From NCBI GenBank assembly GCA_025062195.1, contig JANXAS010000001.1, forward strand, positions 64,872 through 128,871: a stretch of DNA of 64,000 nucleotides, read 5' to 3'. The position numbers and the translations under genes were made by a program. Positions 44,801 through 58,958 of the stretch are shown here, in pieces; within the stretch, counting starts at the first letter, position 1; every line of letters starts with the position of its first letter. The stretch is from Armatimonadota bacterium. GTDB taxonomy: Bacteria; Armatimonadota; Fervidibacteria; Fervidibacterales; Thermosaccharophagaceae. Under the pieces are notes generated by a model. That model searched no databases and had not been told where the DNA came from. It was given only the letters and a program-made list of their open reading frames with translations.

Positions 44801-45490
44801 TAGACTGCGGTCGCTTCACCGTTTCCATCTGTCTTAACTTGCACCTGTGGAACCTTCTTATCACCCTGCAAGAACCAGCCGTTGGCATCGCTCCCGCCAC
44901 TGCCGACAGGTCCTGCCGTTATTGAGAGCGTAACATACTGTTCCCTCATAAGCTCGGCAAAGGCATCCCTTACAACAACACTTATATCCGACTGCGTTAT
45001 CCCATCGGCTGTCAGTATTTGCGGGACTGCGCTCATCGTTATACTCGTTGGCTTAGGCGCAACAAGCGTCATAATGAGGCTCTTTGTGAGCTTTGGCTCC
45101 TCAACAACGGTTGCAACAATGCGCGCCACTTTATCCTGATCAAGCTCTGGCGCAACATAAATTACTCTGGCAATCCCTTGGGTGTCGGTCTTGGCTACAA
45201 GTTCGCTCTTAAGTTGCAGTGCACCTACTTGCCTGCTGCGTCCCGTGCCCTGTCCCGGTGTGAGTGGCTGCCTGAGCGGCAAGCTGCCAAGGGGTATAAG
45301 TGGCGTTATCTGCGCTGCAAGTTCAGGAGTGTATTCAACAAAGCCACCCATGTTTGTCGGATCAACTGTGAACTTGACATCAACACCGCCAACCGGCTGC
45401 CCATCCCTGTCAAGGACCTTTGCCATTATTAGTGCCATTGATCTGCCATTTGCAGACATTGCCGGGTCTACAACAGGCTCTGGAAGCTCA
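26833..45490 (-). repeat. Array of about 58 Big_1 (invasin-like) domain repeats
   Basis: I counted about 58 units by their opening ...A.P..I.ADG.S...I.A.V.DA.GNPV motif, mean spacing close to 107 residues. Variants that replace ADG with YVSGVG or VHGVG (at least four units) form a sub-family scattered through the array. A higher-order tandem of three-unit blocks is embedded at about 38820-41580. The final unit (residues about 6,850-6,942) is diverged and may be a capping domain. Confidence 0.85.
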
Positions 45491-47661
45491 ATGACGCTCG
45501 GCGGCTTGTGAGGTATTGCGCTGACTTCGGGTGAGATATCGCTGCCCAAACCGAGCCTGTCAACAAGCTGGACTGCATAAAAATATTGCGTGTTCACCTG
45601 AAGCGATCTCGCTGGCAGGTCACGACCGTCGTCAACAAAATACCGTCCATCTTGGAGCATATTGAATGGGATTGGGTCTGGCAACCCCCAAAGCTTGTTT
45701 AGCGAAGCCAACATAGTTTGCGTCTGACCGGGCGCAAACCCCCTGAAAATACGCACGCCTGTTATGTCGTTATCAGGGTCACGAAGAGCAGCGGTCACAA
45801 CATTCTGCAAATCAAGCGTCACGCTCTTATCAGTTACCTTTGCAACGATTGGCGAAGGTGGCGTTATAGGCTTCGCGTTTGCAACTGCGGTTGCAAAGTT
45901 GGATAGGTCGCTGGCTTTACCACCTTGATCAACGGAACGCACAGCATACCAATATCGGATGCGTGCATTGATGACATTGCGGTCAACATACCGCGTATTG
46001 AGCCTTCCGACAACCTCAGCTATTGGACGCATTTGAGGCGCTCGAACCCTTGAGAGGATTTGACGGATCTCTGGAAACCTTATATTTGGCGGCATGGGTG
46101 TTGGGCGGATAACACGAATGTGCGGTGAGCGCTGCTCCTCAAGGTTCTCCTCACCACGAAGCACCTGATACTTAACTACATCTGGGTCTGGTGATGGTTC
46201 CCAACGCAATTCAATTGCCTTGTCAAGCCCAACTGCCACAAGGTTCCTTGGTGGCTGCGGCTCATAATCGCCGGGCACGGCAGGTTGCACTGGCGTTGGT
46301 ATGCTTTCGTAGCGCCCTTGCCCAACAGCAACAAGCCTGTAAAAGTAAATCTTGCCATTCACCAAGCCCTTGCCGGCGTTGTCGTCAATGAACTCGGTTA
46401 CATTCGGGCGAAGTGTTCCCTCATCAGCAATTGGTCTATCGTGCGGCGTTAATTCCCTTGGCTCCTCAAACCTGAAAAGGCGATAGCCAACCAAGAAGCC
46501 CTCGGGATTTGGCACCCATGTCAACCTTACCAATTTGTCACCGGCTGTTGCCCTAAAGCCCCTTGGAGCCGTCGGGATGCCGATCGCAACAGCAGGTGGC
46601 ATTCCAGAGCCATCCGGTGGTGGTTGCACTATTTGACTCTCACGACCATCCTCAAGGACTGCGCTCACACCATACCTGTAAAGTGTTGGCGGTGTTGCAG
46701 TTGTATCCACATACTGCGTCTGTGTGGCTGGCACACGCGCAAGCAGCTGCCATCCACCTGCAGCCCTTGAACGTGTTGAGGCTATGCCCACTACTTGCCT
46801 ATAGACGCGATATTCAACTACGGTTCCAGCTGCCGGCGGCATCCAAACAATGCGCACCCCATTTGCTTCCGGATAAACTCCCACATCACTTGGTGCATTC
46901 ATCGCCGGCGCTGTTGGTGCCGCCCCTCCTCTACCGCCGCCTGCAAGTGCTGCAATTGCAGCCGCAAGCAGCACGAACGGCAAAATTGCTCCAGCAGGCG
47001 CTGCACGCTTTACCGGCTTCACTTCCTCAGGAGGCTTGCCAAGGAACCTGTCAACCACCACACGCGCCAAATCAAGCACAGCCTGTTTTATCAACGCTTC
47101 CTTAGCTATCTCAACAGGCGGCTTCTTTGCAGTGCGTGTTATCGTCTCTTTGACATCACCATTGGGGACTGGCTGACCAGTCTCAACGCTTATCAGTTGC
47201 ACCGAGACAGTGATTGTGACTGTGCCACCATCGGCTTCTTCAAGCCTGAATTCGTCAAGCGAGCCGAGAAGCACAGCATCCGCTTGCATCAATTTGCCAA
47301 GCGCCACTGCGCGCTCAACGGTTGGCTCTCTTATCGCAAGCTCAACTTCCTCCGGGGTAATCTGCTGTTCCTTAATTGCACGCTGTATTGTTGGGTCGCC
47401 CTCATAGGCTGTGCGGACTGAGTATTTGCCCGTGTCTATCATCCGGGCAGCTATTGCATCCCTTATCGTGTTAGCCAACCCTGGTGGAGCTTCTGGGGTC
47501 AACTGCGTGAATGAGAATGCAACGACACTCATTCGCCTTGCCTCAGCAGCCGTTGAGGGTGACTGCGGTGTAATGAGCAGCTGCGTTAAGGTTAAAGCGA
47601 TGATGAGGAAGTAACAAACATCCTCACGGATGCTGCTTCTCCTTATGGCTCGCAAACTCAT
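26833..47661 (-). CDS. Giant 6,942-aa secreted protein: CsgG-like head, FnIII domains, about 58 Big_1 Ig repeats
   Basis: A single frame of 20.8 kb. Residues 1-40 are a signal peptide (hydrophobic core YFLIIALTLTQLLI). Residues 44-205 form a CsgG/TolB-N-like alpha/beta domain (MSVVAFSF..., MQADAVLLGSLDEF, ISVETGQPV) like that of the 640-aa neighbour. A hydrophobic stretch at 224-242 (LPFVLLAAAIAALAGGG) may be membrane-inserted. Four fibronectin-III-like domains occupy about 255-730 (for example AIELRWEPSPDPDVVKYQVL). The rest is about 58 invasin/intimin-type Big_1 domains with the recurrent theme PADG.ST..ITA.V.DA.GNPV.DGT.V.F. Several contain DxDxDxxxD loops. No LPxTG, SLH or beta-barrel translocator is seen; it ends in a partly different last domain (APGIFGHN). 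The ATG at 47661 has AAGGGTA upstream. It is probably a cell-surface filament or adhesin (inference). Confidence 0.94.
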   Translation of the reverse strand: MSLRAIRRSSIREDVCYFLIIALTLTQLLITPQSPSTAAEARRMSVVAFSFTQLTPEAPPGLANTIRDAIAARMIDTGKYSVRTAYEGDPTIQRAIKEQQITPEEVELAIREPTVERAVALGKLMQADAVLLGSLDEFRLEEADGGTVTITVSVQLISVETGQPVPNGDVKETITRTAKKPPVEIAKEALIKQAVLDLARVVVDRFLGKPPEEVKPVKRAAPAGAILPFVLLAAAIAALAGGGRGGAAPTAPAMNAPSDVGVYPEANGVRIVWMPPAAGTVVEYRVYRQVVGIASTRSRAAGGWQLLARVPATQTQYVDTTATPPTLYRYGVSAVLEDGRESQIVQPPPDGSGMPPAVAIGIPTAPRGFRATAGDKLVRLTWVPNPEGFLVGYRLFRFEEPRELTPHDRPIADEGTLRPNVTEFIDDNAGKGLVNGKIYFYRLVAVGQGRYESIPTPVQPAVPGDYEPQPPRNLVAVGLDKAIELRWEPSPDPDVVKYQVLRGEENLEEQRSPHIRVIRPTPMPPNIRFPEIRQILSRVRAPQMRPIAEVVGRLNTRYVDRNVINARIRYWYAVRSVDQGGKASDLSNFATAVANAKPITPPSPIVAKVTDKSVTLDLQNVVTAALRDPDNDITGVRIFRGFAPGQTQTMLASLNKLWGLPDPIPFNMLQDGRYFVDDGRDLPARSLQVNTQYFYAVQLVDRLGLGSDISPEVSAIPHKPPSVIELPEPVVDPAMSANGRSMALIMAKVLDRDGQPVGGVDVKFTVDPTNMGGFVEYTPELAAQITPLIPLGSLPLRQPLTPGQGTGRSRQVGALQLKSELVAKTDTQGIARVIYVAPELDQDKVARIVATVVEEPKLTKSLIMTLVAPKPTSITMSAVPQILTADGITQSDISVVVRDAFAELMREQYVTLSITAGPVGSGGSDANGWFLQGDKKVPQVQVKTDGNGEATAVYQAGTKVGRVVITARCGQAQANITIELIAGLPAQVIVKAAPAELTADGRSTSQITTTVYDAKGNPVKGIELTFTASIGRVSPESATTDDNGNATAVYTAGTKVGIAVVTARAKINGAEGKAEITLKPGVAASIQVAAYIIDAQGNKVPMPSSGIFVSNVGMTPNQAIIDITVTDATGNPVKDTVVTLQAVGGTVTHSVRTDENGRAEATFTSGTASGQAQVTVTAAGVSQSLTIPLRPGPPHFLTVSVAQASLPADGASVTTISAIVSDANNNRVEDGNEVRFTIEGDALGAQFGDGRIQTVAVTQNGVANVALRSGTKVGRIQILVQALHQGQEKARQVVSVDLLQVTVTSIELQLSQSTMSVSDTNSPEPKERRPLRTDIANRVTATATVRGVDGKPLLNRPDVQVLFTVSDSNVLLIDADNQQRYAMGALTKNIDGKTGQARVILVASRTAGPIVLTAVSERVVQSAHLTQLPGVSARIEISAFPQTIPADGISTSQITVQVWDANDNAVSDGTAVQFSTSAGIVKPSVAWTVGGKASTTLTSQLSKTPIQAVVEARVEGILQPARTTVVFGVTIATLVSMRAEPSTIVGDGISEAKIYATFTDDRGNPVADGTQVYFDTTYGRITSVTPTQNGTAMAILRSAIVTQPRVVQVTAVLINPDGSRAVGTVNVTFTPAREVLIITATPPTLIADGVSSSVITARLVDLDGKPVQGVAVRFTTSLGSIKAITDVTDANGTATATLTAGSRAGIAIVTVRAATAEASIDVPILPGAAQFIRLTTYVPNPPLYADGFTQLKVIAEVTDANGNWVVPGTPVTFTQTDAAGTQAVQIAQTNDRGQASVFFTSTVAGNAIIVATSGAATAQISVAYLPSVTLTMDITPAIITADGISTATVTVTAKNAQGNPLPNILVRFQASHGTITAQAPTDARGIATATYTAPKLNEPSTVATIIAIARFLDGTEQRLTGIITLQGVGAGLSIAANPPSLPADGKSEATIRVVALDVQNRPVRGLTVRFTTTAGSLSEEAVQTGADGTATVKLIAPTTPAVATVTATIPPTATIGGTSVARTNVTFNPVTIVLSADSNVLRANGIATTSVRARLLDTSGLPVADGVVVNFAANEGSINPAIVPTVNGVAIATYTSGNRAVVATIVGQVISLGISGSLSITLLPMQAKRVVMVSSSPRFMADGNDVVSIEARVYDESGNAAMDGTVVCIRSDGGTFGAAGTQVRQVHLSTAGGLARVDIRSEEAKVISIEGFVDNDRDYVADTGTVVGQVKVEAVGVGAGITVTLNREMMPADGVSRARVRVSLRDAQGKAIGGMLVRLTSNLGRVEPSEVKSDANGVAEADLVASTVGGMATVVASCVYQGVERSGSGSITMNPVVIRLSSSVNELRADGKSTALITANVSDTSGLPVADGVTIRFSADNGQVLPEEVQTLSGVARATYIASRQAGVATITARAVALNIAQSLTINLLPGASKTVVATASSPTLLADGISTVTITASVYDEAGNPAADGTLIGFVSDGGTFGAAGTGIRQVHLPTMAGSCSVILRSVQPGIITVNAFIDIDRDGAPDFGTQGAKVVIQAIPVPASISLTLSKTQLPADGASKTQITAAVRDTQGNPLGGINVAFTTTFGRLTADSAITDQNGITPPIELIAPTVPGVATVTASSVINGAIASGSAVVTFNAVSIVVTTDKAQMSADGRTTATVIARLLDSAAGVPVADGILVDFRTDNGQVNPARSETKNGVAICTYTAGVRAGVATVTGEVMSLGISGSVGIMLRAKEASVVVVDANPYSIPADGNSVSQITATVLDSDGNFVQDGTVVTFRTNLGTFGPRLSNIQVVQATTINGQAIVGLRSLPKAGLASVVGFIDKDGDKVLDAGEPSDQAIVEIAAIAPGLTLSVDRLSIPADGVSLATIQATLRDSLGRVIDASGVVFSTNAGKLVNRDDSEAKNGVVRIQLQSDIVPGSATVVAVAKLDGAEARQSVNVVMNPLAVSLVIDKDRLKADGVDNTFVRARVMDVANNVVSGVDAEFSVDNGDVTPKVVTVQGGEAIAKLTSSKVSGIANVRVRVLRYVATAQVTYVPVDIAKVLISANPVEVPVGAFGSAISVLALDSSNRPVEGAVVTFSTDKGFIVVGQGITDAQGVATATLYSDTTVGEATVTATATYEGRSAIGQVKVRFIPGSAANITIEVRNSRGKVVNPNEEPVEANNIDYYELIAYVTDRFGNPVRDGTAVTWKIDPNFRQTAQGGVSMTQNGRARNELLSSIFCVGQVAAIVDPVFAATQLVFVPGPPVTVVASAIPPVIEAGVGEATITARAFDAQKNPINIELGGTPGAGVPNVIKGKRSVDFIFSTNAGLLDDLETGANHETGTTVTVKGDTIVDNGGIATVKLLAGSTATTTATITVKAGTAIGTANVTFVSSDAAQLRVTAQPRQIPGNMIATSTLRVEVRDAKGNPVRDETPVQFEIASGNVDDGIFLPSGGTRQTALTSNGVVTIVYRSGLNISDDARNVQINVVSGKASLVYNMILQSAKPHSATLTAAPSTIPANGLATSTITATLRDANGNPVPLGTIGVFRTDNATFVNAISADGREARDATDANGVATATLRSSTRAGIAKVWIDEAIVNGTTVRLAQVGSTAVQMVGVPAVMTLVSDRASLPADGVSYAVLTLTLRDAQGNPIKTDPARDDDNIRFTTTNGTLKTLAGTDLPINGVDTDANGVVKVRLVAPFNPGAATVTATFVRDGVVTRAQEDVVFRPLAIRVIANPDTIRADGISTSTITAFLRDAVTNEPVAQGTLVTFATTLGTITANDESPELAGIQVSVRGYDGQVTVALLSGREPGVATVTASVGTSSGSVSVTLIGAPANIVLTAAPAQIRAGGVDTSTITARVVDAAGNSVWDGTLITFQSTLGTLSPDEDGNPANGAQRSTVGGRTFVLLTSGNDIGTATVSAKAENDVMASVLVLITSGAPASIELAAEPDRIVADGVTVSRIIATVKDANNNPVSNAPVYFSTTVGTIVPQTAFTNAQGIAVATLTSTSVGVAYVTAASGPVSKRITVTVIKGVPAALSLRSDVDEVYVHGVGKTPESATITITVRDANNAPVGGVPVFLTTTLGSVTSSVTTNGQGIATATFTSGLQSGNAVITAQAGSAIASLTVRVKPGAPEQVTLIASPNVILADGVSTSRLTATVLDKNGNPVEDGTQVTFSATAGTVVGSPAATVNGQAQATLRSTTTETNVTVTATSNGKSDSTIVRFAKVEPTAIQLSAQPSMLSVGGIPGRVTQSKVIAIVLDAQGRRIANGTPVTLRTSKGIFVESKQPTYEATTVNGQVAAMLDVSAETESGVALITAESGQAVASLSIPVQPGPPAAITLAAMPSSIPADGISTCTLIAKVQDQYGNPVPNQPVAFSATRGTVTQATANTNVLGAASATLRSISSSVDVVVAATAQSGAMTATTMVTFTAVRAASITLTAVPPAIPADDRTASTITAIVNDANGNPVPDGTVVTFVTNFGLFTNGSTVQYVETLNGRANVTLRSQAGLAGVAHVTATSGDAIGTVTVTITSGMPAFVELSVVPDKVPADNQTVATVRAEVRDTAGNPVPAVAVTFSTTLGAFTNAQVPTDARGVAITQIRSNRVGIATITAVSGSASSVQVQVEFITPTATIQLVATPTIIKADGGQSRITATVMDGFGKPVPDGTVVRFSIPSVNHGRLQPDADNNPIAESVKTANGQASVTLIGNAAVPVPGTCPVTAEANTATGIVRSTVEVVLAKEPARITLTATPSSIRADGVSTSQIRALVTDANSHAVADGTPIKWKTTAGRIDAQTTTVNGEARATLTSSPVPQAQPVRVTAFYDANNNNDVDAGETSGTVDVIFSAGPVASLMLTAQPQTQIADGVSIVQLKATVKDELGNPVADGTPVIFQTNLGTFVGAPAPGTTYPTSTVNGEASASLVSSQTGLATVTVQVGLLARQVVVSFKPGPAASVSLSVVPAVVFPEDGREVLITATALDRLNNPVEDRTRVEFIVTAYDGTDYTYNLRRLDGTYSNIVNTVSGLAQIKLVRASKNDIGVYTVRANVLSDGGILVSALAQVRFAGEPAELIATATPTVIIADGRSTSAITVVARDITGMPVADGTIINFTTTAGSVTSVGRTVGGQVVAALTSSMQPTPQNAPAVVTAWYDADGDRIPSYGFEPMATVEVVFTTGVPARVTLAASPTKVFADGVSTSAIVATVMDALSRPVIDGVPVTFTTNLGTFPNGLQTFTTVTSGGTGQASVMLTSPRLPGIANVTATVAGITSAPVTISFVPGEPASIIVTASPVSLKAGTGMTSLITATLRDAVGNPVADGTQVMFEISGTSQFITPMPVTTRNGVAVATLRGDTANSAPRRELVTAKAQTSTGYVSSAVEILFVGLPAYIALTAAPTTVTADGASTARITAAVFDVVGNPVYDGTVVEWRVDPTPADLNVTISGEGSTRNGVAVATLKAPNRPGSATVTVTATETKVQASITIRFIPNAIARITITAEPPEIDVLGADGVEATTITAVVTDAAGNPAPDGTIVFFSTTRGTIEAAKPTYGGIARATLTSSTVSDNNVIVTAQTNGVSAQTTVKFRPGAARRVRLTAVPNRVIANGYSQVVVTARIVDVNGNNVADATPVWFFATQDNEQPGMFIGGTYDVALNRTQVRAFTQGGIAAAVLRSSKTAGTVTIVVHAFRIADDTTDPNNLPPAQASESMQVVYEPSVPASVQVSAEPSSIYVSGVGVEPSSAIITALVLDTNGIPVEGGTARFSIAANQGVLTDEYGSDNDGSPMTETVTIGVGNMAGIAKARLTAGTTVGTVTISVAATRGGVTATGIGSITYMPGPVHTIVCFANPTAIPADGASLATISAIVRDMHGNAIPSVPVAFTSDIGTIPVPKSVTDGRGIATTTLRSIASDKTVTATVIARAGDKSAMAQVTFSSVLADTVVLAATPTTIVADDGQSAMTVTATVTARGQPVPDGTLVTFSASSGSIDSAQTPDEDVTAPGWQRKTIQGVAIIRLRSGRVAGPVIITATSGTAFANLQVTFLPGPPDESQCTISPSPSTIPADGTTPSVITVTVLDKFQNPIPGVVVDFTAIGGAVVPAQSKTNAQGIATTRFTSTTQGQATVTANFGGIVKSVNVTVEAAPVASITLSFSVPNLYVTGVTVNGQPVGTIPALPIEGTATATVRDVNGNPVGAGIVVTFSTTLGAIEASATTTAGGAAQVKLLAGTTSGIARVRAAVGSVVGTLDIPILPGDPASIMLGGVPTVIPADGRSTASITATVKDANNNPVRDGTTIEFFSRDTKVGYPPATGDPPGNPMGTITARADTINGMANATLVSRSSTVPLVAYVSARARVGAAYVYSDSIPGNATLDPLEVTFEPVAAATLTLSAQPSKIYVSGVGLLPTTSLITAQVLDAAGNPVPDGTIVHWMTDRGVLQDPDSGLPSDRSATIGGVAKIQLVSGPLAGRATVTAVIRDPNNNPILSQSIQVEFMPGLPAPYPHSTMSANPPTISGNGIANSTITVTLRDANGNPVVDGTRVTFIANRGTIRPVTGYEQGTVGGVCMAILVSEVVAVDTDAYVKANAPAGSPFFIGTDMDGTQLGGQHCIVTMVKSIPTTISASIDRARLTPDGRSTANITVKVADQFGLAVPDGTVIDFSVDLGTVTTPSVTRNGVASAIYTAGTTPGIATINIRVHDYPHINTGLQVYLPGGVVKILMGYDPALIYEPSIWADGVDRQRIVAQCIDRFGNPVNGVEIIWTTTAGSITPATDKTGPRTVSGFRGGAQTLEGASIATLVSQRSLAGLSATVTAIVPTGETGIVMASTYVGFTGVPTQVDWEWLNTTTGLYNEPVAIYHIPTGGRIHIRIRVRDQNGTNVPDGTSVTFSISTTSGSDGGSLSNPSQTTSNGWTHPWLHYGEGWGTAATLSGGTDGRVWRCTIDATVSTPYGSITFRAPGIFGHN
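38820..41580 (-). repeat. Three tandem three-domain super-repeats, about 920 bp each
   Basis: Within the Big_1 array, three successive blocks share the same order of three domain types. Type A opens NPV.I.LS.....RADG. Type B contains DGGTFGA and a late FIDxDxD loop. Type C has LPADG.S plus a (V)PG.ATV.AS ending. Type A begins at about 41580, 40665 and 39745, and a fourth A-like unit begins at 38820, so the periods are about 915, 920 and 925 bases. This shows growth by duplication of a three-domain unit. Confidence 0.75.
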
Positions 47662-47798: not shown

Positions 47799-50441
47799 TC
47801 ATCGCATTCTAAACACAGCCGATGCAAATGCTGTCTGGGAATCCTCCGTCACCGGTTGGACGGTTACAATGTATGCACCGTTTGGCACCCGTTTGCCATT
47901 GTCGTCCTTGCCATCCCAAAGCATTGTAACTTGACCGCGCTTAACAACACCGCTGCTGCCCAGCTCCCTTACGACTCTGCCAGTAAGCGTCCTTATGGCA
48001 CAATAAATGCGCGCATCCTTTGAGAGCACGAACGATATCGCCATCTTGCCGCCACGAACCGGCACAACGCTAAGTTGCATAACTTTCAGCGGAGCATAAT
48101 TGCTCTCTTCAATCACCACTTTGAACCGCCGCAATCCACCAATTGCACCACTTTGATATCTGTAGTTTGATGCGGTGCGCATGTTGATGACCCTCTGTGC
48201 ATCAACATCAACGAGCATCACCTTGGCATTCTTCGGGATGTCAACCCCTTCCCACTGCAGCACCACATCTTTGTTAGGCAACTCGCAATTCACAACGAAG
48301 TCCCAAACCTTCCTTCCACCACCTGCTGCCTTTATATCGTAGCAAAGCTCTGTTGGTGTTTCTCCTCTTCTTCCCCCAGCAAACGCAAGCTTAACCGACG
48401 GCGATGGGCGAGGTGGCTCAAAGACATCAAAATCATCAAGCCCATCGGATGCGCCATTAGCAACGCCAAGCAAATTATGCGAATCGCACTCATCGCCAAC
48501 CGTTACACTTATGCGCATTTTCCAGCGCAGGTTGTCATAGTTGGCTTGCATCTTGCTGCGCTTGCGCACTTGAAACGAGCCTATGAATTGCGGTTCATTG
48601 AACAGAAGGACCACATCACGCTTTGCATACACCCAAAATGCTTGCCATGGTGGAAGAAGCACATCGTTGCCAGACTTAGGCTGGGCATAGTCCTTAGCCA
48701 GATTGTCCCAGAAGAAAATGAAGCTGTGAATGTAGCCCTCAACGGAGGCGTCCTCATAGCTGAGTGCCAGCGGGCTTCCCGGAACAGCAAATTGCAACCC
48801 ACCAAGGTAGGCAGGTTGCGGGAATGGGTTGCCAACCTGATTCCAGCCGGCGTATAGCGGGACTGCTACCGGCATCTCCGTGTCTTTAAGGAAACGAGCA
48901 CCGTTGAGCACTATCTTCGTTGGCGTCTCCAAGTAAATCCAATAGCCTTCACCTGGGCGAAGCTCCCTTATGTCGTATGGGAAGAAGCGATACTTATTAG
49001 AGCGCGGATCCCAACGGGCAAGCTTGAGTGTTCCAGAGAGCCCCAAGGCAGTTGGTGGGTAACGATCCCCAACTGGATATGGTAGACATAGCATGTGAAA
49101 GCCGCCCATGAAAAAGCGCTGTGCCTGCGCAGGGATAACAAACTTGATTGGCAGATTATGCACCTTTCCCGGAAAGGCAATGCCAACGATGTTGATGGTT
49201 GTATAGCCTTCAACCCAATTCTCAACACTAACATCCCATGAGACCCTCGCCTCACTGCCAGCTGGGACATTGCCAATTGATTGTGTTGGCGCAGTGCCCT
49301 GCAACAAACTCATCCCTGGCGGGAGCTGAAGTATGAGCGTTGTTTCAGTTAATGGTGCATCGCTGTAATTGAGCACTGTCACATCAATTGTGAATGGGCT
49401 TGGCATCGGAAAAGACGTCTCAACCTCCGCCGTTAGCGGATTGTCCCCAAAGACGGTATTCAACCTTGGCGGCATGTTAACGAAGATACCGTAAGAGCCT
49501 CCGATGGAAACCGCTGTTGATATATTCAATCCGACATAGGTGACAAATTCAACCTTTGCTCCGGGCGTGAGCGTGAATGGAAGCCAATAGTAAGCTACAG
49601 CGCTATCTTGAAACTCAAGGTTGTAGAACTCACTGACTGTGAAGTCCCAGTTGTCTGCAGTTAGGTGGCCAGCTTCGCCAAACACGAGCCTATCAGGCGG
49701 TGTTGCATCGCCACCTTTAACGATACCCTTGAGGCTAAATGCAGTCTGTGTCCTTGAGAGTGTCGTCAGCCAGACTTCGGGCATACCTATACCAGCGTTG
49801 AACTCTCTCTCCCTAACTATCGGCGGCACACCTGAAACATAAAACGGTCCCGAACTCAACTTAGGATCAAGCCGCGGATTTAGGAATAGGCGAACACCGA
49901 TTGTGTGCCCGACATTGTCAATGTTGATTATGCGGTGCCGTATCTCAACGAACTCACGGATCAAAGTGACAATGCGCTCAATTATCAAGTCATCCGGATT
50001 GGTGTCATAATCGGGGTCTGTCCCAGCAGGCTCCGGCATCTCAACAACCCAGAAGCATCTGACGGAATTTTGGGAGACCATCATCGGTGTCCCGCGCAGC
50101 TCCCACCTTACAGGGTCTGCGCGGCGCTGCCCAAGAGATGCAGCCGTCCCGTTGGCGCGTATCAATGCGCTATAAATTCTATCAGCGTCATCCTCAACGC
50201 GCAGAGTCATTGAGCCTGTGAATATATCAAGCTTTGGCGGGATATATGGATCAACAACGATTGTGGTCACCGTAACATCGCCATTTGCAGCCATCGTCAC
50301 GCTCAGGTAATTGTTTGCTACGGTCACTTGAGCCTCAGCCATGCCGAAGCCGATGAGCAACAAAATGGAGGGCAAAAAATTCCGCCAACATTTGCCTTCC
50401 AAGAACACTCTCGGTATCCACTTAACCATGCATTGTCTCAT
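47799..50441 (-). CDS. Secreted beta-rich protein with shared C-terminal sorting-like region
   Basis: A protein of 880 residues. The signal peptide has core FLPSILLLIGFGM with likely cleavage after AEA. Residues 40-330 are a beta-rich domain I do not recognise. Residues about 335-435 look like a CARDB/DUF11-type Ig domain (ILQLPPGMSLLQG...). From about residue 442 it carries the region shared with the proteins at 50456-53797 and 55824-58157: GFHMLCLPYP, then a GWNQVGNPFPQ block, WVYAKRDVVLL, NLLGVANGASDGLDDFDV, and a final FlgD-like Ig domain with TLTGRVVREL, WDGKDDNGKRVPNGAYIVTV and the end FRMR. The ATG at 50441 follows GGAGGG by seven bases and sits 15 bases past the upstream stop. It has no catalytic motif. 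Confidence 0.85.
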   Translation of the reverse strand: MRQCMVKWIPRVFLEGKCWRNFLPSILLLIGFGMAEAQVTVANNYLSVTMAANGDVTVTTIVVDPYIPPKLDIFTGSMTLRVEDDADRIYSALIRANGTAASLGQRRADPVRWELRGTPMMVSQNSVRCFWVVEMPEPAGTDPDYDTNPDDLIIERIVTLIREFVEIRHRIINIDNVGHTIGVRLFLNPRLDPKLSSGPFYVSGVPPIVREREFNAGIGMPEVWLTTLSRTQTAFSLKGIVKGGDATPPDRLVFGEAGHLTADNWDFTVSEFYNLEFQDSAVAYYWLPFTLTPGAKVEFVTYVGLNISTAVSIGGSYGIFVNMPPRLNTVFGDNPLTAEVETSFPMPSPFTIDVTVLNYSDAPLTETTLILQLPPGMSLLQGTAPTQSIGNVPAGSEARVSWDVSVENWVEGYTTINIVGIAFPGKVHNLPIKFVIPAQAQRFFMGGFHMLCLPYPVGDRYPPTALGLSGTLKLARWDPRSNKYRFFPYDIRELRPGEGYWIYLETPTKIVLNGARFLKDTEMPVAVPLYAGWNQVGNPFPQPAYLGGLQFAVPGSPLALSYEDASVEGYIHSFIFFWDNLAKDYAQPKSGNDVLLPPWQAFWVYAKRDVVLLFNEPQFIGSFQVRKRSKMQANYDNLRWKMRISVTVGDECDSHNLLGVANGASDGLDDFDVFEPPRPSPSVKLAFAGGRRGETPTELCYDIKAAGGGRKVWDFVVNCELPNKDVVLQWEGVDIPKNAKVMLVDVDAQRVINMRTASNYRYQSGAIGGLRRFKVVIEESNYAPLKVMQLSVVPVRGGKMAISFVLSKDARIYCAIRTLTGRVVRELGSSGVVKRGQVTMLWDGKDDNGKRVPNGAYIVTVQPVTEDSQTAFASAVFRMR

Positions 50442-50455
50442 GGTGCTTCCCTCCA

Positions 50456-53400
50456 TCATCGCAAGCGTATCAAGCCGACACCTTGAAAGGAGGTCTTTGT
50501 TTCATCATCGCTTGCGACAACCTTGCAGATGAAAACTGACGATGCGACCTTCTGACCATTGCTATCCCTTGCATCCCAACGGACATAGTTCAAGCCGGCC
50601 CTCGCACCGCTCAAGTTCAGCTTGCGAATAACTCTACCTGCAAGCGTAAGTATAGACACCTCACACCTTGCCTCTTTCGTCAATTCAAACCTTATAAGCA
50701 CATCTCCGCCCCTTGTTGGCACAGCGCTAATGCTGCTCACACGCAGCCCAGATGATGAAGCTCTCTCAGCAACAATTCGCACCTTCGTGCTACCAGACGA
50801 ACTAAGAGCTATATCGCATGCGCTGACTGCGCGCATGTTCAACGGCGAATTGCGCGACGGCTCGTATAGCCACAGCCTCCAGCCGCTTGGGATGCTACCA
50901 ATGCCATCCCACCTCAGCCTCACAGTTCTACAACTGCTAAGGGGCTGCAAATCCACATCCCAAACAATCCTACCCGAAGCTGCCGGGCGGCAATCAACCA
51001 AGAGCGGCAGCTTCTTAGCCTCGTTAACTTCATCCGTAGGGATGAGACTGATTCGCATCTTTGCTCCGGGAGGCGCCGGCGGAGCCGGCATATCTCGCCC
51101 AAACTCAACACCGACATTGGCATCAGCATCCACTGCAAGCACAACATTTTGTGGCACCGCATCACCAGCCGGCGTTTCGGAGATCAATCTCAAGCGCCAT
51201 CCGCCATCGTGCCTTGAGGGACGCTTCCCGCCACCCTGGCGATTCGCGTCACCTGCACGAGAGCGCATCGCTATTGAGGGCAAGATGACAAGCCTGCACG
51301 GCTTAAACTTCCTGACCCAGTAACCCTCAAACGGTTCAAGCACAATCTCGGGCGGTGTCATCGCAACATATTGCTGCCCATCCCATCGGTAAAGGATTGG
51401 TAAGATGTAGCCGCGCTCTGCAGCATCATTGAAGTTGAGCAGCTGCGATGTGTCGTCCGCCAACACCTGTATCGCATTCAAGTCAATGGCGAATGGGAAT
51501 GGGTTGCCAATCTGCTGCCAACCAATGTCAGCCTCCCTTATGGCATCCCAAGACTTTTCATTTCGCATGATGAATGGCTGCTGCCTATCAATTGTGTGCC
51601 CCTCAATTTGTAAAGGTGTTGGAAGAGCTACCCTCACCCAATAGCTTCTGCCCGCAACAAGCGTGCTCACAAACTCGTCATAGTAGCCCTCCTCATAGTA
51701 ATGGTAGTCGTAGTCGCCAACATCACCTGCAATGTATGGCGGTCTGGCTGTCGGCTTCAAACCGTAACGAGCCAACCGCCTGTTTATCGTGGCGCCGAAG
51801 ACATAAGATGGCGAATCACGCCCACTAATCAACTCATATGGGATTGAAACCATTTGCAAGCCGGTGCTTAGCACCTTTGGGACGACAGTGAATGTGACAC
51901 TTTTTGGCTCAGCCTGAACTCCACCGTAATTTGCGGCTCGTATTTCAAGCGTGTGTGAACCTTGCTGCAAAGGTTGCGTGAGCTTAAGTTCAAGCGATTG
52001 TGTTGTTGGGTCAAATTCAGTTGTTGCGCCCCTGAGAACCTCTTGCCCATCAATGGTTACAACTATGGATGATGGGTCAATGTTGGTCTTGCCCTGATAC
52101 GGTGATGGGTATGGTCCGGCAAATCTCGCCCTTATTATCGGTGTGAATGTGAAAAGTATTTCGCCTTCCTTTGGCTCAACTATGTAAATTTCGGGCTTGG
52201 TCAGAACGCTCACTCTGGCATATATTGAAGTTCCAATCATGCGTATCTCGGTTATGGAGACGCCAGAATCAAGCCCAAAGTATGTGGCGCTTGACGGCTT
52301 GCTCAAGAATGTGAACTCAGTATTGTTGGTCAAGCCAGGATAAGGGTCGCCGGCATCACCGTGGTTGCCCTGTAGCCATCCAAGGAAGCCATAGGTGGAA
52401 CAGTTGAATGCGAGCGGGTCAAAGTCAACCTGTGAAAGGTCAATATCATCACGCCCGTCAGCTTGAACCATGTGAACGCCCTTCCTCATGTAATCAATCA
52501 GACCAGTTAGCGGGTTGATGTTGACTTGAATTTCGTTTTGGAGATATTTGGTGTAGTCACCAGTTATAGTTTTGTCAATGTGCCAAATGGTTAACCCAGC
52601 ACCGGGAAGGTATTGGTCAAAGCCCATCAGCTGGCGGTTGCAAAGCAGGAAATATTCATTTTGCGCTGTGCTCCCAAACGCCCACACGCGATAAACAACT
52701 GGCTTTATTTCATACGGTGGTATTTCAACGACGCCGGCATCACCGACAACATCAATTGGCGTTATCCAACGAAATAGCATCTTGCTCCACGGGTCATGTT
52801 CACCGGGAAGACCAATTGGGCGCAATGGGTTATACTCTGCTGGAACAAATCTATCACCAGCACACATTAGCGCCCAAAGCCCGGGGCTGACCGCCTTCGG
52901 CGTTATAGCATCATATAAGTCAACCAACCCAAACGCATGCCCCATCTCATGCGCATAAGTCCCAACATCAGCAGTGGCTTCATGGATGAGTATGAACGAC
53001 TCAACAGTCACATTATCCCTTGTCTGAAACGGTTGCGATGGGGTGCCCATCAATCTTTCCCATACAATGCTTCTGTGGAATGCGCCAAACGATGGGTCAT
53101 CATTGAAGTTGCCGTCAGGGCAGCGAGCATCTTCGTCGCATGCAAAAGTTACGAACAGCAGATCAACTCGCCCATCCTTATCACTGTCATAGCGCGAGAA
53201 GTCAACGAACGGGTCAACGACCCTTATTGTCTCTTGGATGATAACATCGCCGCCGATAGCAGCATCGGGCATGAATGTTACATTCCCAACAGTATCAGTT
53301 GGCACATCAATGACAATCCAACCGTATGTGTCACCTGTGATGGTGAGCTTGCCATAGGAGGATTCGTAATAGAAACGGGCAAGAGATGATGGATTAGCCA

Positions 53401-53797
53401 TGTCAAAGAGCAGCCTGTTAAAGTGAGCCACCGTATGCTCCTCTGCGGGGACAACATCATAAGAGCGCGGTCTGACAAGCAAGTGCAAAGCCCTAATAGT
53501 TCCTATAAGTCCACCTCGTGGCAATAAGCCTGTGCCGAGCGTCCCGAAAAAAGCATAATGGACATCAAGTGCCTGACGAACTCTTTCACCACGCTGCTTT
53601 GGCTTAGCGCTCAACGGCGAAAGTTCAATCCCATAGCGCTTCGCGACAGCCTCCAATATTTGCCTCTTCAAACAGCGTATGCCCGACATTCGTCTCACTT
53701 TTATTTGCTGCCCTGATGCCACATTCAAACCAATAAGCGATAATAGCAGCCCTATAGCAAAAACCCTACACACCCATTTGACTCCCAAGTGTTTCAT
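50456..53797 (-). CDS. Secreted M6-family metalloprotease with shared C-terminal region
   Basis: A protein of 1,113 residues with a signal peptide (VFAIGLLLSLIGLNVASG). The catalytic domain is of the immune inhibitor A (M6) kind. Its zinc motif HEMGHAFGLVD at residues 283-293 provides HExxH plus the third ligand of HExxHxxGxxD. Upstream, YDSDKDGRVDLLFVTF is the conserved M6 strand with a calcium-type DxDxDG loop. After the protease come a beta region and an Ig-like domain (EIYIVEPKEGEI). The C-terminal region from about residue 645 (LQMVSIPYE, WQQIGNPFPFAIDL, TLAGRVIRKL, end IRLR) is shared with two neighbours. The ATG at 53797 is preceded by GGTGAT. It probably matures or sheds surface proteins of this locus (inference). 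Confidence 0.9.
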   Translation of the reverse strand: MKHLGVKWVCRVFAIGLLLSLIGLNVASGQQIKVRRMSGIRCLKRQILEAVAKRYGIELSPLSAKPKQRGERVRQALDVHYAFFGTLGTGLLPRGGLIGTIRALHLLVRPRSYDVVPAEEHTVAHFNRLLFDMANPSSLARFYYESSYGKLTITGDTYGWIVIDVPTDTVGNVTFMPDAAIGGDVIIQETIRVVDPFVDFSRYDSDKDGRVDLLFVTFACDEDARCPDGNFNDDPSFGAFHRSIVWERLMGTPSQPFQTRDNVTVESFILIHEATADVGTYAHEMGHAFGLVDLYDAITPKAVSPGLWALMCAGDRFVPAEYNPLRPIGLPGEHDPWSKMLFRWITPIDVVGDAGVVEIPPYEIKPVVYRVWAFGSTAQNEYFLLCNRQLMGFDQYLPGAGLTIWHIDKTITGDYTKYLQNEIQVNINPLTGLIDYMRKGVHMVQADGRDDIDLSQVDFDPLAFNCSTYGFLGWLQGNHGDAGDPYPGLTNNTEFTFLSKPSSATYFGLDSGVSITEIRMIGTSIYARVSVLTKPEIYIVEPKEGEILFTFTPIIRARFAGPYPSPYQGKTNIDPSSIVVTIDGQEVLRGATTEFDPTTQSLELKLTQPLQQGSHTLEIRAANYGGVQAEPKSVTFTVVPKVLSTGLQMVSIPYELISGRDSPSYVFGATINRRLARYGLKPTARPPYIAGDVGDYDYHYYEEGYYDEFVSTLVAGRSYWVRVALPTPLQIEGHTIDRQQPFIMRNEKSWDAIREADIGWQQIGNPFPFAIDLNAIQVLADDTSQLLNFNDAAERGYILPILYRWDGQQYVAMTPPEIVLEPFEGYWVRKFKPCRLVILPSIAMRSRAGDANRQGGGKRPSRHDGGWRLRLISETPAGDAVPQNVVLAVDADANVGVEFGRDMPAPPAPPGAKMRISLIPTDEVNEAKKLPLLVDCRPAASGRIVWDVDLQPLSSCRTVRLRWDGIGSIPSGWRLWLYEPSRNSPLNMRAVSACDIALSSSGSTKVRIVAERASSSGLRVSSISAVPTRGGDVLIRFELTKEARCEVSILTLAGRVIRKLNLSGARAGLNYVRWDARDSNGQKVASSVFICKVVASDDETKTSFQGVGLIRLR

Positions 53798-53900
53798 CTG
53801 ATCACCACTCTCCGTTATGCTCAATCAACTCTTTTCTTTTCTTTGAACACTCGCACCAACTTCGGACATGACAGCCTCAACCTTACAACCTTGGCAGTTC

Positions 53901-55823
53901 TCACCTTCCACCCTTAGGAGGTGTTGGTGGCGCCTCAGCAGTCCTGAATGCATGCACAACACTCCAAACCCACCCATCTGGGTATGGCGGTGCCATGTCA
54001 CGGCTGTTTCTGTATCCAACTCGCCAATAAAATGTCGTTGCACCTGTGACCCTGAAGAACTGATTCAGTTCGTTCACCAAGCGTATTTCAATTGGCACTC
54101 CATCCTTATCCTGCGTGAACCTTGTCTGCTTCATGAAAGCCTTCCCCGGAAGCAAGTTCGCTGGGTCTGTCCCAACAAAGATAGCATACTCATCAGCGCC
54201 CCTGACGCTCAAAAAGCGAAATGTCACATCAGCCAAGTTGATGTTATCGCTTCCCGGTTGTCCTAAGTTCGGTGGCGAAACAAGGTCTGTATCGGACATC
54301 TTCCTTAAAGCTGTCGCAGGACCAATGATTGATGAGAATTGGCTCAGAACAATCTCCCACGCCACACCTCCTCCGCCAGCACCGCCGCCAACGCCGGTTA
54401 TAACCGACATTGCTGGACGGCGGGCAGTTATCCTGCGGATGATATACCAATACTGGCGACCGAGCTCAAGCGGCGTATGATAAAACTCCTCATCGTAATC
54501 GCTGACCACAACCTGCCTTGAGCGGTTAACCTTTAGCCTCTTGGCTCTCCCCGGAACTTCAACCTGCCTGTCAAGCCATGGCGTCCTATCTGGGTCGTCC
54601 ACATCTTCGGCAGTCGCCTCACCCTCAAAATACTGTGTTGTGTCAATATATTGGGTGACATTTCCGGGGATTATGTCAATCATCGTGGCATTGGATGGAG
54701 AAAAGCCAGCTGTATCACCGCGATAAATTTCAACCCCAAGGACTGTCCCACCACCGCTCCCAAAGCGAACTATGATACCATCACCCCATGAGAGAGAGTG
54801 AGCCGAAAGAACAGCTGGAGGTCTCTCAGGCTTCCTGCTCTGCCCGATGACTGCAACGAGTGCACCCAACGCAAGCAGCGGGAATATGATACCCTGCACC
54901 CAAGATGTGATTGTTGGACGCTCACGCCTTATCGGCGGCATTGCCACTTTCCCAACCGGCGGCATCATGAACTGTGCCCTAACTTTGTCCATCTGTTGAA
55001 TTCCCTGTGTCTCCCAATCAATATCGGCATGCGACTGACGCTGTTCAACGCGTTTGACAACGATCTCGCCGATCTTCCTTGTCTCGCCCGTCTTCAAATC
55101 TGTATGTATGACGCTCATCCTCATTCCGGCAGTGACAGCGTCCTTCGCACCGATGTTGAGCAGCACCCTATTTTCCGGGAGCCTAATCAAAACCTGCCCG
55201 GTCGGAAGCCTCGTTGCACGCATGTTCTCTTCAGCGCGCCTTGCAGCCCTATTTAGCGCATCGGCAAGCAACCTCGTATCCTCAATACCTTCCGGGCTTC
55301 GTTCCATGACATTTGCACCGTTGACTGGCTCGCCAGCTTCAACATCATAAACAAACACTTGTATGTGAACGATGCCGACCTTAGGACGGCTTGTGACAGT
55401 TGCCGATACAACTTTGCCGGTAGCCACATACTGCGCGTTCAAATACGCACCTACGCGCTGTATGTCAGCGATGCTCGGTGATGGCGGGATCTTGAGTTCG
55501 CTCAACGCATCTTGCACCTGTTGGCGCGGCACAACCTCCCATTGAGGTTCCTCCGGGAGCATAATTGCATATGCAAGCGCATCCGCAGCAGCCCTGCCAA
55601 GCCAAGCTGGCACATTGCGCTCAATATCAAAGTCAAGAATAGCTATACGAGGCTTTGCCCGTCCGACTTCCACTGCGCCAACTTGCCCCGCAGCCGGTTG
55701 CTGTGGAGCCTCGGAACTCGTCGGCTCGCTGACGACCCCGATGAGCGTTAGTGACAGAGCCACAATCAGCAGCCATGCGACGCGCCTAATTGAGCGACAA
55801 CGCTTAAGTGCCATCATAGCCAT
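53901..55823 (-). CDS. CsgG/FlgT-like exported protein with second membrane segment and FnIII-like domains
   Basis: A 640-residue protein. Residues 13-31 are a signal peptide or anchor. Residues 57-200 are a CsgG/TolB-N-like domain (PRIAILDFDIERN, VEAGEPVNGANV). Residues 208-285 resemble the FlgT C-terminal beta-barrel (VLLNIGAKDAVTAGMRMSVI, KIGEIVVKRV). Residues 305-327 are a clear hydrophobic segment, and two fibronectin-like domains follow (about 335-470 and 520-628). A Gly-rich linker sits between them (GVGGGAGGGG). CsgG is the outer-membrane secretion channel for curli and FlgT belongs to the flagellar outer ring. Here neither membership is proven, but the layout suggests an envelope-associated platform. 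The same head design occurs at the N-terminus of the 6,942-aa giant. The ATG at 55823 directly abuts the upstream TGA. Confidence 0.82.
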   Translation of the reverse strand: MAMMALKRCRSIRRVAWLLIVALSLTLIGVVSEPTSSEAPQQPAAGQVGAVEVGRAKPRIAILDFDIERNVPAWLGRAAADALAYAIMLPEEPQWEVVPRQQVQDALSELKIPPSPSIADIQRVGAYLNAQYVATGKVVSATVTSRPKVGIVHIQVFVYDVEAGEPVNGANVMERSPEGIEDTRLLADALNRAARRAEENMRATRLPTGQVLIRLPENRVLLNIGAKDAVTAGMRMSVIHTDLKTGETRKIGEIVVKRVEQRQSHADIDWETQGIQQMDKVRAQFMMPPVGKVAMPPIRRERPTITSWVQGIIFPLLALGALVAVIGQSRKPERPPAVLSAHSLSWGDGIIVRFGSGGGTVLGVEIYRGDTAGFSPSNATMIDIIPGNVTQYIDTTQYFEGEATAEDVDDPDRTPWLDRQVEVPGRAKRLKVNRSRQVVVSDYDEEFYHTPLELGRQYWYIIRRITARRPAMSVITGVGGGAGGGGVAWEIVLSQFSSIIGPATALRKMSDTDLVSPPNLGQPGSDNINLADVTFRFLSVRGADEYAIFVGTDPANLLPGKAFMKQTRFTQDKDGVPIEIRLVNELNQFFRVTGATTFYWRVGYRNSRDMAPPYPDGWVWSVVHAFRTAEAPPTPPKGGR

Positions 55824-58157
55824 TCACCTCGCTCCTCCTGCTACATTGATCCTAACTGCCGCATTTACAGATGCCCTACTCTCAACGCCGGAGGCTTCAA
55901 CATTCGCTACATAAAAACCATCGGGAAGATTATCCGGCAGCCTCACCGAAAGGATATTCCCACCGCGCCCGTAAACCTTTGACGGTTCAATTCGCATGAT
56001 GAGTCTTCCAGTGAGCGTCAGCAAGCTCAACCTTAGTTTAGCTGGCTGCGTCAATGTAAAGCTGAGCACTAATGCCCCACCACGGCTCGGCAGCTGGCGC
56101 AAGTTCAAGATGCGCAGCGGTGAGTGTGCGCCGTGCAAGAGTTTTAAATTGAGGTAGCGTCTTTCACCCGCCCCTATAGAAAAACTATACGGGCGTTGTG
56201 TAAATGGATCAATGGTAACGCCCCTTTCATTATCAATCAAGGTCGCCCTCACATCCTTAAGGGGCTTATTCAACGGCTCAAGAGATAATGTCACAACGCC
56301 GCCTTCATTGCCCTCAATTAGAATGAGAAAGTTTTGTGCCCGTGAACTGTTAGAGCGCAGGTCAACTGCGCATTTCATTTCTCCGTTTTCAGTCCGCTGG
56401 ATAAGTGACAGGTTGAAGCACCGCAAACCGAAGGGCTTTGGCGGTTCGGGAATGTCAAGCACATCAAACCCGTCGCTGGCATTATTTGCGACACCTACGA
56501 AATTGTCGCTGTCAACCGACGCGCCACACATCGCCCTCAACCTTAAAAGAAACGAATCAACAGCGTGCACCTTAAGCAATTTAAGGGCTTCATCTTGAGA
56601 TGTATGGCGAGACATACGCACCGGCTGATTATCCACAAGCAACTCAACTGGCTGAAGCGCATAAACCCAATAAGCTTTGTATGGCTCAAGCGTTGTCGCA
56701 ATTTGGTAATAACCTGCAACGGTTTCAGCACCACCCCACTCCTCACGGAGCGTGAAAATAGCCGTGCTGATAAACGCCCTCGCCTTTAAATCCGTTATTG
56801 GGATTGCCTCAAGTCCAGCTGGCTTAATGTATGAGCGCAACCAATCAACTGCGAATGTAAATGGAGCGCCTATCAAGTTCCAACCGACCTCAAGCTTGAT
56901 CGGGAAGCGATAAACAGACGGCGTTGGCGAGCCTTCACGGGTGAAGTCCAAATATGTGTTGGTTAAAAGGAAATAGCCTCGCCCAATTTGAAATGCGTAT
57001 GCTGGCGAGGCAACATTTGTTGGGTCAAAATATGCATACTCACCGCCAAGCGGTTTTTTCGGATCTGTGATCCATGTTGCGAGCTTGAGCTTGCTCAATT
57101 CAAATACCTGTGCGGCACTCAACCCGTCCTTCGTGTAGTCATAAGGGAGCGACATCATATGCAAACCGGGCTTGAAACTTTTGAAAGCGCTCACAGCGAA
57201 GTTTATCCCTTTAGTTTCACGCCCAGAAATGACACTCACATTTCGTTTCTCAACGGATGAGTAGCCGGTGGTGGCAACTCGCACATTATAAATCCCAGCA
57301 GCAACAGTGATGCGGTAATTGAAGCGATAGCCATTCTCCTCCTCATATTCTGGTGCCGTAATAGCGAACGCCACAACCCTGCCAGCCGAATCCACAACCT
57401 CAATCCTCACGCCGCCGACAACCGAGCCATCAATCAACCTCGTCACTAAGCCGGAGATTGAACCCAACGGCAGCGCGATCAATCTGAAGTTGACGCCGGT
57501 GATGATTCCACCTGCAGGGACTGTTACAACCCTTGACTGACTCGCATATCCTGCAGCACTAACCCTCACTTCAACCTCACCGGCAGGCACATTCGTCAGC
57601 GTGTAAACGCCGCTTGATGCCGTCCTCGCCGACGATACCACCACTCCAGCATAAAGCGCCTCAACGAGAGCATTGTCAATGGGCAAACTGTCCGCATCGC
57701 GCACGACTACACCCTCAATTATGCCCGGCTGAGGCATCAAGATGATGTCAACTGTCACCGTGGCGGCTGGATCTACACGCACATTTGGCTTTGTGACCGG
57801 TTGATAGCCTGTGGCACTTGCGGTCAGGTTATATAGCCCGGGTGGTAAGTCGGATATTCGGTATGCGCCGGTTGCATCAGTTGTTGTGGACTTAGTCACG
57901 GGCTGTTCGCCAGGGTATGGAGCAACCGGTATGGCAGTGACTGTGGCATTTGGGACGCCGGTTCTCCCATCGGATTGATATACGCGCCCAACAATTGACC
58001 CAGGAGTTTGCTGAGCCTGCTGCGCAATGGAGAGATTGATCGCAAGGAACGCTATGCATAGTGCAGCACCTGTAACTCCATCCCCAAAAGAAGCAAAAAG
58101 GCGCTTTGGATGCATCCGCAGCACCCCCAAAATGGCACAGCAATTCTCCATCCCCAT
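55824..58157 (-). CDS. Secreted protein with three carboxypeptidase-regulatory-like domains and shared C-terminal region
   Basis: A 777-residue protein with a signal peptide (ALCIAFLAINLSIAQQ). Three CarboxypepD-reg/SpaA-like beta domains follow at about 52-142 (GRVYQSDGRTGVPNATVTA), 145-228 (GVVVRDADSLPIDNALVEA) and 232-322 (GLVTRLIDGSVVGGVRIEV). Residues 326-777 form the region common to three proteins of this locus: GLHMMSLPYDY, GWNLIGAPFTFAVDW, YWVYALQPVEL, NFVGVANNASDGFDVLDIPEPP and TLTGRLIMRI in the last domain, ending GGAR. The start at 58157 has GGGGTGG upstream and lies 10 bases after the coaE stop. An ATG at 58115 with GGGGGTG upstream gives a more typical signal peptide. It is the first gene of the surface cluster. 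Confidence 0.88.
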   Translation of the reverse strand: MGMENCCAILGVLRMHPKRLFASFGDGVTGAALCIAFLAINLSIAQQAQQTPGSIVGRVYQSDGRTGVPNATVTAIPVAPYPGEQPVTKSTTTDATGAYRISDLPPGLYNLTASATGYQPVTKPNVRVDPAATVTVDIILMPQPGIIEGVVVRDADSLPIDNALVEALYAGVVVSSARTASSGVYTLTNVPAGEVEVRVSAAGYASQSRVVTVPAGGIITGVNFRLIALPLGSISGLVTRLIDGSVVGGVRIEVVDSAGRVVAFAITAPEYEEENGYRFNYRITVAAGIYNVRVATTGYSSVEKRNVSVISGRETKGINFAVSAFKSFKPGLHMMSLPYDYTKDGLSAAQVFELSKLKLATWITDPKKPLGGEYAYFDPTNVASPAYAFQIGRGYFLLTNTYLDFTREGSPTPSVYRFPIKLEVGWNLIGAPFTFAVDWLRSYIKPAGLEAIPITDLKARAFISTAIFTLREEWGGAETVAGYYQIATTLEPYKAYWVYALQPVELLVDNQPVRMSRHTSQDEALKLLKVHAVDSFLLRLRAMCGASVDSDNFVGVANNASDGFDVLDIPEPPKPFGLRCFNLSLIQRTENGEMKCAVDLRSNSSRAQNFLILIEGNEGGVVTLSLEPLNKPLKDVRATLIDNERGVTIDPFTQRPYSFSIGAGERRYLNLKLLHGAHSPLRILNLRQLPSRGGALVLSFTLTQPAKLRLSLLTLTGRLIMRIEPSKVYGRGGNILSVRLPDNLPDGFYVANVEASGVESRASVNAAVRINVAGGAR

Positions 58158-58167
58158 TCAGCCACCC

Positions 58168-58803
58168 CTACACACCACGCAAATGGCACCAGCAACGCAG
58201 CGTGCCCTTCACAGCAGAACGCAAAATGCGCGCTGTTTCTGACGGGCTTCTATTGCAGGTGATTACCCTATTTGCCCTGCGCATAAACTCATCGGGCGAA
58301 ACTTGTGAGCGCATCCTTGCAAACGCTTCCTGCATTGACATACCTCGTCCAATCAATCTTTGAAGTATTGTCCTCTCGTCAGCGTGTGTCACCCAAACCT
58401 CATCAACATTTTTCCGCATGCCCATTTCAAACAGCACAGCAGCTTCCACAACGATTAAGTTTGCACCCCTGCTGCGAGCATCGTTTATAGCGCTTTCAAT
58501 CCTCTTGACCATGAGCGGGTGGAGCAACCTATTGAGGCGCTTTAAAGCGCGCCCATCTGAGAAAACGCACCTTGCAAGTTTTCCCCTGTCAACATTGCGA
58601 GCCGAGTTGAGCACGCCTGTCCCAAAGTTTCCGACGATGCGTCCCCAACCAACTTCACCCCTGTTGAGTAACCTGTGCCCAACCAGGTCAGCGTTGATCA
58701 CCAATACGCCATGACGAGCAATGATCCGAGAGACGGTGCTTTTGCCCGAGGCAATCGCACCAGTCAAACCGATGACGGTTGAACGAACCCTTCTATACAC
58801 CAT
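58168..58803 (-). CDS. coaE: Dephospho-CoA kinase
   Basis: A 211-residue enzyme for the last step of coenzyme A biosynthesis, ATP-dependent phosphorylation of the 3'-hydroxyl of dephospho-CoA. The P-loop GAIASGKST lies near the N-terminus, followed by VLVINADLVGHRLL (family motif with the catalytic aspartate). The CoA-domain helix region with RLNRLLHPLMVKRI and VVEAAVLFEMGMRKNVDEVWVTHA follow, the latter given as VVEAAVLFEMGM and VDEVWVTHA. The C-terminus has RMRSQVSPDEFMRRA and ANRVI. It has normal length for the family. I chose the ATG at 58803, seven bases after GGTG; the frame runs nine codons further upstream. It lies downstream of rpsA and only 10 bases before the first surface-protein gene. 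Confidence 0.93.
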   Translation of the reverse strand: MVYRRVRSTVIGLTGAIASGKSTVSRIIARHGVLVINADLVGHRLLNRGEVGWGRIVGNFGTGVLNSARNVDRGKLARCVFSDGRALKRLNRLLHPLMVKRIESAINDARSRGANLIVVEAAVLFEMGMRKNVDEVWVTHADERTILQRLIGRGMSMQEAFARMRSQVSPDEFMRRANRVITCNRSPSETARILRSAVKGTLRCWCHLRGV

Positions 58804-58958
58804 TGATGCACCGCTCCAACACAGCATCAAATAACTTGGAGCAATATCTCAAGTTGGGTGTCGCGCAAATCCCGTCACAGCTGATGGAGTGATTGCATGA
58901 ATATCGCTGTGAGGAGGTGAAGGCAAGCCTCTTGGTGAGTTGAGAACTTCAATATCCA

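Follow-up and report, generated by a model that had tools for sequence, protein, structure and literature searches.

The window analyzed here, 64,000 nucleotides from the 3.4-Mb draft genome of an Armatimonadota bacterium, encodes three neighboring proteins, A, B, and C (Table 1), whose N-terminal parts are unlike and whose C-terminal parts are alike. The question is what the common ending is for. The original prediction had taken the whole region of 440 to 480 residues as a candidate export or anchoring signal, and had likened its last module to FlgD-like Ig domains and to the C-terminal domains of type IX secretion. In reviews, type IX secretion is a system of the Bacteroidota (PMC5445135, PMC10202324, PMC7463736), and a literature search found no paper on it in Armatimonadota. 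The answer we arrive at is that the terminal Ig domain is a candidate outer-membrane sorting signal, one that is probably read by a reduced SprA-like translocon.

Table 1. Features of the window, by window position, and of loci elsewhere, by genome, contig, or locus label
Feature	Position	Strand	Remarks
coaE	58168..58830	-	Conserved neighbor heading the cluster in several relatives
Protein A, 777 aa	55824..58157	-	Signal-peptide-like N-terminus, carboxypeptidase-regulatory repeats, shared C-terminal region; end ...GGAR
Shared three-domain C-terminal region, protein A	55827..57197	-	BLASTP/MAFFT; profile A1
Terminal FlgD-like Ig domain, protein A	55827..56126	-	Approximate, final 100 codons; alignment A6
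Gene D, 640 aa	53901..55823	-	Second in the conserved A-D-B-C cluster; in most relatives an ortholog is flanked by A and B
Protein B, 1122 aa	50456..53824	-	M6-type peptidase domain with HExxHxxGxxD, then shared C-terminal region; end ...RLR
Intact M6 zinc site HEMGHAFGLVD, protein B	52919..52951	-	
Shared three-domain C-terminal region, protein B	50459..51904	-	BLASTP/MAFFT; profile A1
Terminal FlgD-like Ig domain, protein B	50459..50758	-	Approximate; Pfam FlgD_ig; alignment A6
Protein C, 886 aa	47799..50459	-	N-terminal beta part without family assignment, then shared C-terminal region; end ...RMR
Module 1, protein C, ~182 residues	48594..49139	-	GWNxxGNPF ... FWV; predicted structure; alone at C-termini in barrel-less lineages
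Module 2, protein C, ~148 residues	48105..48548	-	GVANGASDGLD ... INMRTASNYRY; predicted structure
Module 3, protein C	47802..48092	-	7-stranded FlgD-like Ig domain, Arg end; proposed sorting signal; predicted structure, FlgD_ig, hhalign
6942-aa Ig-repeat protein	26833..47661	-	Parts related to the gene 3' of the cluster in relatives
3559-aa giant ORF	15951..26630		
Source-genome barrel, 1181 aa	G000:C148:36654-40148 (L085:8652-12197)		
Genes beside the source-genome barrel	G000:C148 (L085:3303-8890)		
Further full region at C104	G000:C104:99616-100917 (L065:9614-11656)		Split by one in-frame TGA
DUF5693/csaB-barrel loci	L100:6383-9510; L088:16326-18332; L095:7775-9043		
Other SprA-repeat ORFs, examples	G007:C60:74374-74979; G009:C53:4461-5054		
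GyrA with intein-like insertion	G001:C2:88733-92485 (L317)		Single 1276-codon frame

The common region is real. BLASTP among the C-terminal parts gives E values from 3 × 10−8 to 1 × 10−36, the motif series runs as had been described, and the endings GAR, RLR, and RMR are present in A, B, and C, respectively. Protein A matches C at 26.8% over 500 columns (E = 2 × 10−28 to 6 × 10−33), and B matches C at 23% over about 640 columns (E = 6 × 10−32 to 1 × 10−36), with the similarity starting further upstream, at residue 516 of B and 295 of C; A and B match more weakly (E = 3 × 10−8). The N-terminal parts are indeed unlike, with CarboxypepD_reg repeats in A, Peptidase_M6 in B, and no assigned domain in C, which has a weak match to NEW3. 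For B, the original prediction had put the start 27 bases lower. The M6 zinc site of B is intact in the source order, but the full-region proteins tested from other families (L045-L064) do not have it, a parallel to the "inactivated M6" proteins found in bacteria with type IX secretion.

With gene D, the three genes form a cluster, A-D-B-C, that is kept across many families, with coaE ahead of it in some genomes and, often, a relative of the 6942-aa Ig protein gene behind it. Gene D has no Pfam or NCBIfam family match; by eye, its N-terminal part is CsgG/FlgO-like and it has a transmembrane helix. The window holds two giant open reading frames, of which the longer combines fibronectin-like repeats with dozens of repeats of the invasin Ig type and, again by eye, has a CsgG-like N-terminal part. 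There is no Rfam match within the window, and a check for a plasmid origin gave no match.

The region is not a single unit. In the predicted structure from protein C (70 sequences in the alignment, mean pLDDT 92.5), there are 3 separable beta domains at residues ~1-182, 198-345, and 350-446, that is, two beta modules of ~180 and ~150 residues followed by a FlgD_ig-like Ig domain with an Arg end, whose seven predicted strands span 353-445 of the model. A profile of the three regions matches 57 of 61 Armatimonadota genomes, including the source genome, where a C11 (clostripain-family) protein at C44 carries a further full region, another lies at C104, and module 1 is found alone at C148. The C104 copy is interrupted by a stop codon, which may reflect gene decay or a sequencing error. 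In genomes without the outer-membrane barrel described below, related proteins stop directly after module 1 or module 2. Because modules 1 and 2 are found in those genomes without the Ig domain, we regard them as ordinary beta modules of surface proteins and not as a signal, and since they also occur at other C-termini, the idea of the whole region as one signal was rejected.

That leaves the last domain. The final residue of the full-region proteins is Arg in 57 of 67, drawn from 17 families, and Lys in 1, with 3 more ending in Arg-Trp; the corresponding figure for Arg among 370 other proteins from these loci is 14.6%. The binomial p for the Arg end is ~1 × 10−37, although the copies are related and so are not independent. 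By a heuristic that asks for a basic start and a hydrophobic 12-mer, a signal-peptide-like start is found in 51 of 55 full-region proteins versus 187 of 377 other ORFs. In 19 of 20 freshly taken Ig matches, the stop comes 0 to 6 residues past the match, and the remaining one reaches a contig end.

A domain at the end of secreted beta-domain proteins might be only a structural cap, a generic FlgD_ig whose Arg end is a lineage habit and does no sorting. FlgD_ig is widespread, the source genome has isolated FlgD_ig-like domains internal to three other proteins (on C33, C115, and C160), and the domains in the window fit FlgD_ig, which Pfam matches at the terminus of two of the three proteins, better than TIGR04183, which stays below its family cutoff and has no match at the Ig position in the window proteins. 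A cap, however, would not predict an Arg end in so many copies from so many families, or a stop straight after the domain, and we consider it unlikely.

The homologs in other phyla bear on what else the domain might be. A scan of named genomes with the three-row alignment gives 75 loci, mostly Armatimonadota, with others in Bacteroidota, KSB1, Zixibacteria, Cloacimonetes, Marinimicrobia, and Poribacteria. Outside Armatimonadota, the region ends mostly in KKM(I/V)xxK-like tails with Lys last, and the last domain is TIGR04183 (type IX type A) over the cutoff in 5 of 8 tested proteins. As a positive control, SprA is over its cutoff in 13 of 14 genomes with such homologs. Hhalign joins the Armatimonadota Ig domain to the sorting domains of these homologs with E = 3 × 10−15 and a score of 80, where nulls score 20 or less. 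Type A sorting domains are 7-stranded Ig-like beta sandwiches (PMC10994853, PMC4804311) in which a Lys near the C-terminus is almost invariant and matters for function (PMC10994853), and in the RgpB fragment S664-K736, Lys is the last residue of the sorting domain (PMC4804311). Because the Armatimonadota domain scores below the family cutoff and has Arg for that Lys, and because the known machinery is incomplete, it is not to be filed as type IX type A.

How incomplete the machinery is can be stated by component. The absence of type IX machinery that had been noted is correct within the window; elsewhere, the source genome has a candidate channel and is without full-length SprA, C25, or GldM, and a classical type IX system was rejected on that basis. 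Full-length SprA (TIGR04189) is over the cutoff in 0 of 61 Armatimonadota genomes. The C25 (PorU-type) sortase, PF01364, has no match in the source genome and is present in 16 of 61 relatives, and FadL/PorV-like proteins are found below the cutoff in 26 of the 61 genomes. GldM/PorM (TIGR03517) is found in 0 of 29 Armatimonadota; it is found in 3 of 3 Bacteroidota and in 0 of 3 SprA-bearing genomes of KSB1, Marinimicrobia, and Hatepunaea, so that its absence is not decisive. A search of the source genome for porU- and sov-type genes, which had been suggested as a check, yields neither a C25 sortase nor full-length SprA, and yields an SprA-like barrel.

That barrel was reached by weak matches to SprA positions ~590-690, which lead to a family of ~850- to 1200-aa proteins that are mostly Phe-ended. 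Outer-membrane barrels end in Phe. Most of the Armatimonadota genomes have one such protein of roughly 1000 residues in place of full-length SprA. In a profile-profile comparison of the family with SprA, hhalign aligns 399 columns of the N-terminal half (E = 5 × 10−16, score 155), and reversed and block-shuffled controls score no higher than 39. One member (938 aa) was modeled from 32 sequences, giving ~38 strands as counted from the strand list, at moderate confidence (pLDDT 74, pTM 0.57); the SprA barrel has 36 (PMC10994853). In Foldseek, the top query-normalised TM-scores are to SprA entries 8gl8 at 0.42, 8gl6 at 0.41, and 6h3j at 0.37, followed by SprA 6h3i at 0.32, with the others among the matches listed at 0.31 or less; the lowest E value among the matches listed is to the Mtr complex barrel (6r2q). 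By profile alignment the protein is a remote SprA homolog in its N-terminal half, and by modeling it is a predicted outer-membrane barrel. The source-genome member lies beside PEGA/carboxypeptidase-regulatory proteins, along with one of 760 aa that has a C-terminal module 1. The SprA-like repeat GxDYxIDYxTG is seen as well in other ORF families of ~700 to 1180 aa, even in barrel-less genomes. The repeat alone was rejected as proof of a channel, as phage tail families and these other ORFs match it too, and the full-length barrel family was used instead.

Counting a terminal-Ig match at E below 1 × 10−15 and a full barrel, 121 Armatimonadota genomes divide into 82 with both, 0 with the barrel only, 3 with the Ig domain only, and 36 with neither. 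The 3 Ig-only genomes are G004, which is 63% complete and has a barrel fragment at a contig edge, and the drafts G092 and G119. By family label, 24 have both, 11 have neither, and none is discordant, the true count with both being 23 since G109 was labeled separately. A GyrA tree of 29 genomes has at least 4 independent trait changes on well-supported branches, with barrel and Ig domain concordant each time; a strict sign test on 4 pairs gives p = 0.125, and four pairs cannot reach significance. (One GyrA match, listed in Table 1, is interrupted at about query residues 130/131 by an intein-like insertion.) The cap reading would not predict this exact co-variation. Nor would it predict that the sole full region in a barrel-less family (L228, genome G008) is without the basic end, terminating in FDLP.

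Co-variation does not by itself make the barrel the reader of the signal. The Ig domain might be a signal or anchor for other machinery, with the barrel an unrelated outer-membrane protein, tied to wall polysaccharide for example, whose losses fell in the same lineages. Several families have the barrel away from cargo and preceded by DUF5693 and a CsaB-type polysaccharide pyruvyl transferase, and there are related SprA-repeat proteins that do not co-vary with the signal. Against this, the barrel adjoins full-region proteins in nine loci, a count that is not unbiased because barrel loci near cargo were partly chosen first; there are no discordant families, and no other candidate channel was noticed. 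We hold this alternative to be improbable. The barrel might also be a docking platform at the surface, with the cargo leaving by another route and then held on the barrel through its Ig domain. Such retention has precedent, as in type IX the type B cargo is kept on the surface by PorP-like barrels (PMC9143113), but the relative of this barrel is SprA, a channel, and not a PorP-like anchor, and there are one to a few barrels per genome versus up to 27 Ig domains, so that we think this very unlikely.

The preferred reading remains a sorting signal read by an SprA-like translocon. Sec signal peptides, judged by the sequence heuristic, would take A, B, and C to the periplasm; the terminal Ig domain would dock in the large outer-membrane barrel, the reduced SprA relative encoded elsewhere in the genome; and the cargo would pass to the cell surface, to be released or retained there. 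The Ig domain would thus act in the manner of a type IX type A signal. The export signal as first proposed is well supported for the final ~97 residues, by their C-terminal place, their basic end, the signal-peptide-like starts of the proteins, the type IX domain of the homologs, and the co-occurrence with the barrel, and it is not supported for the whole 440 to 480 residues. Because the last domain occurs essentially only with the SprA relative, export of a type IX-like kind may exist in Armatimonadota. Whether this amounts to the phylum's own branch of type IX-like secretion, with a compact SprA-related translocon lacking any recognizable Gld motor or dedicated C25 sortase, Arg-ended Ig signals, and a core operon of surface proteins conserved across much of the phylum, we judge to be evenly balanced. 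If true, finding a reduced SprA-like channel with signals of its own so far from the Bacteroidota would reveal which parts transport needs and would bear on the origin of the type IX system, and the rule of a terminal Ig domain with an Arg end would allow surface proteins to be predicted across a phylum that has been little studied.

Four known systems are close enough for comparison. Like the type IX type A domain (TIGR04183/PF18962, Por secretion tail), the Armatimonadota domain is C-terminal, is predicted to be a 7-stranded Ig-like sandwich with a basic terminus, and is found on signal-peptide proteins of varied function, and it sits where the sorting domain does in the homologs of other phyla, following the same pair of modules; it differs in scoring below TIGR04183, in being FlgD_ig-like, in having Arg for the conserved Lys, and in having no YPNPF-type start. 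Like SprA/Sov (TIGR04189; PDB IDs: 6h3i, 8gl8), the barrel is predicted to be very large, with an N-terminal half that is homologous in the same order, but at ~870 to 1200 residues versus ~2000 to 2600, it is below the family cutoff and its C-terminal half is without recognizable homology. Pfam places the domain in the same family as the Ig-like domain of FlgD (PF13860) for two of the three proteins, and 7eha matches it in fold, whereas the remaining parts of the proteins are unrelated to that flagellar hook-cap protein and the domain here is terminal with a conserved basic end. Finally, protein B has a partial match to the T9SS-dependent M6-like inactivated metalloprotease (NF052323) and the same type of architecture, but with an intact zinc site, in the source order only, and a different sorting domain.
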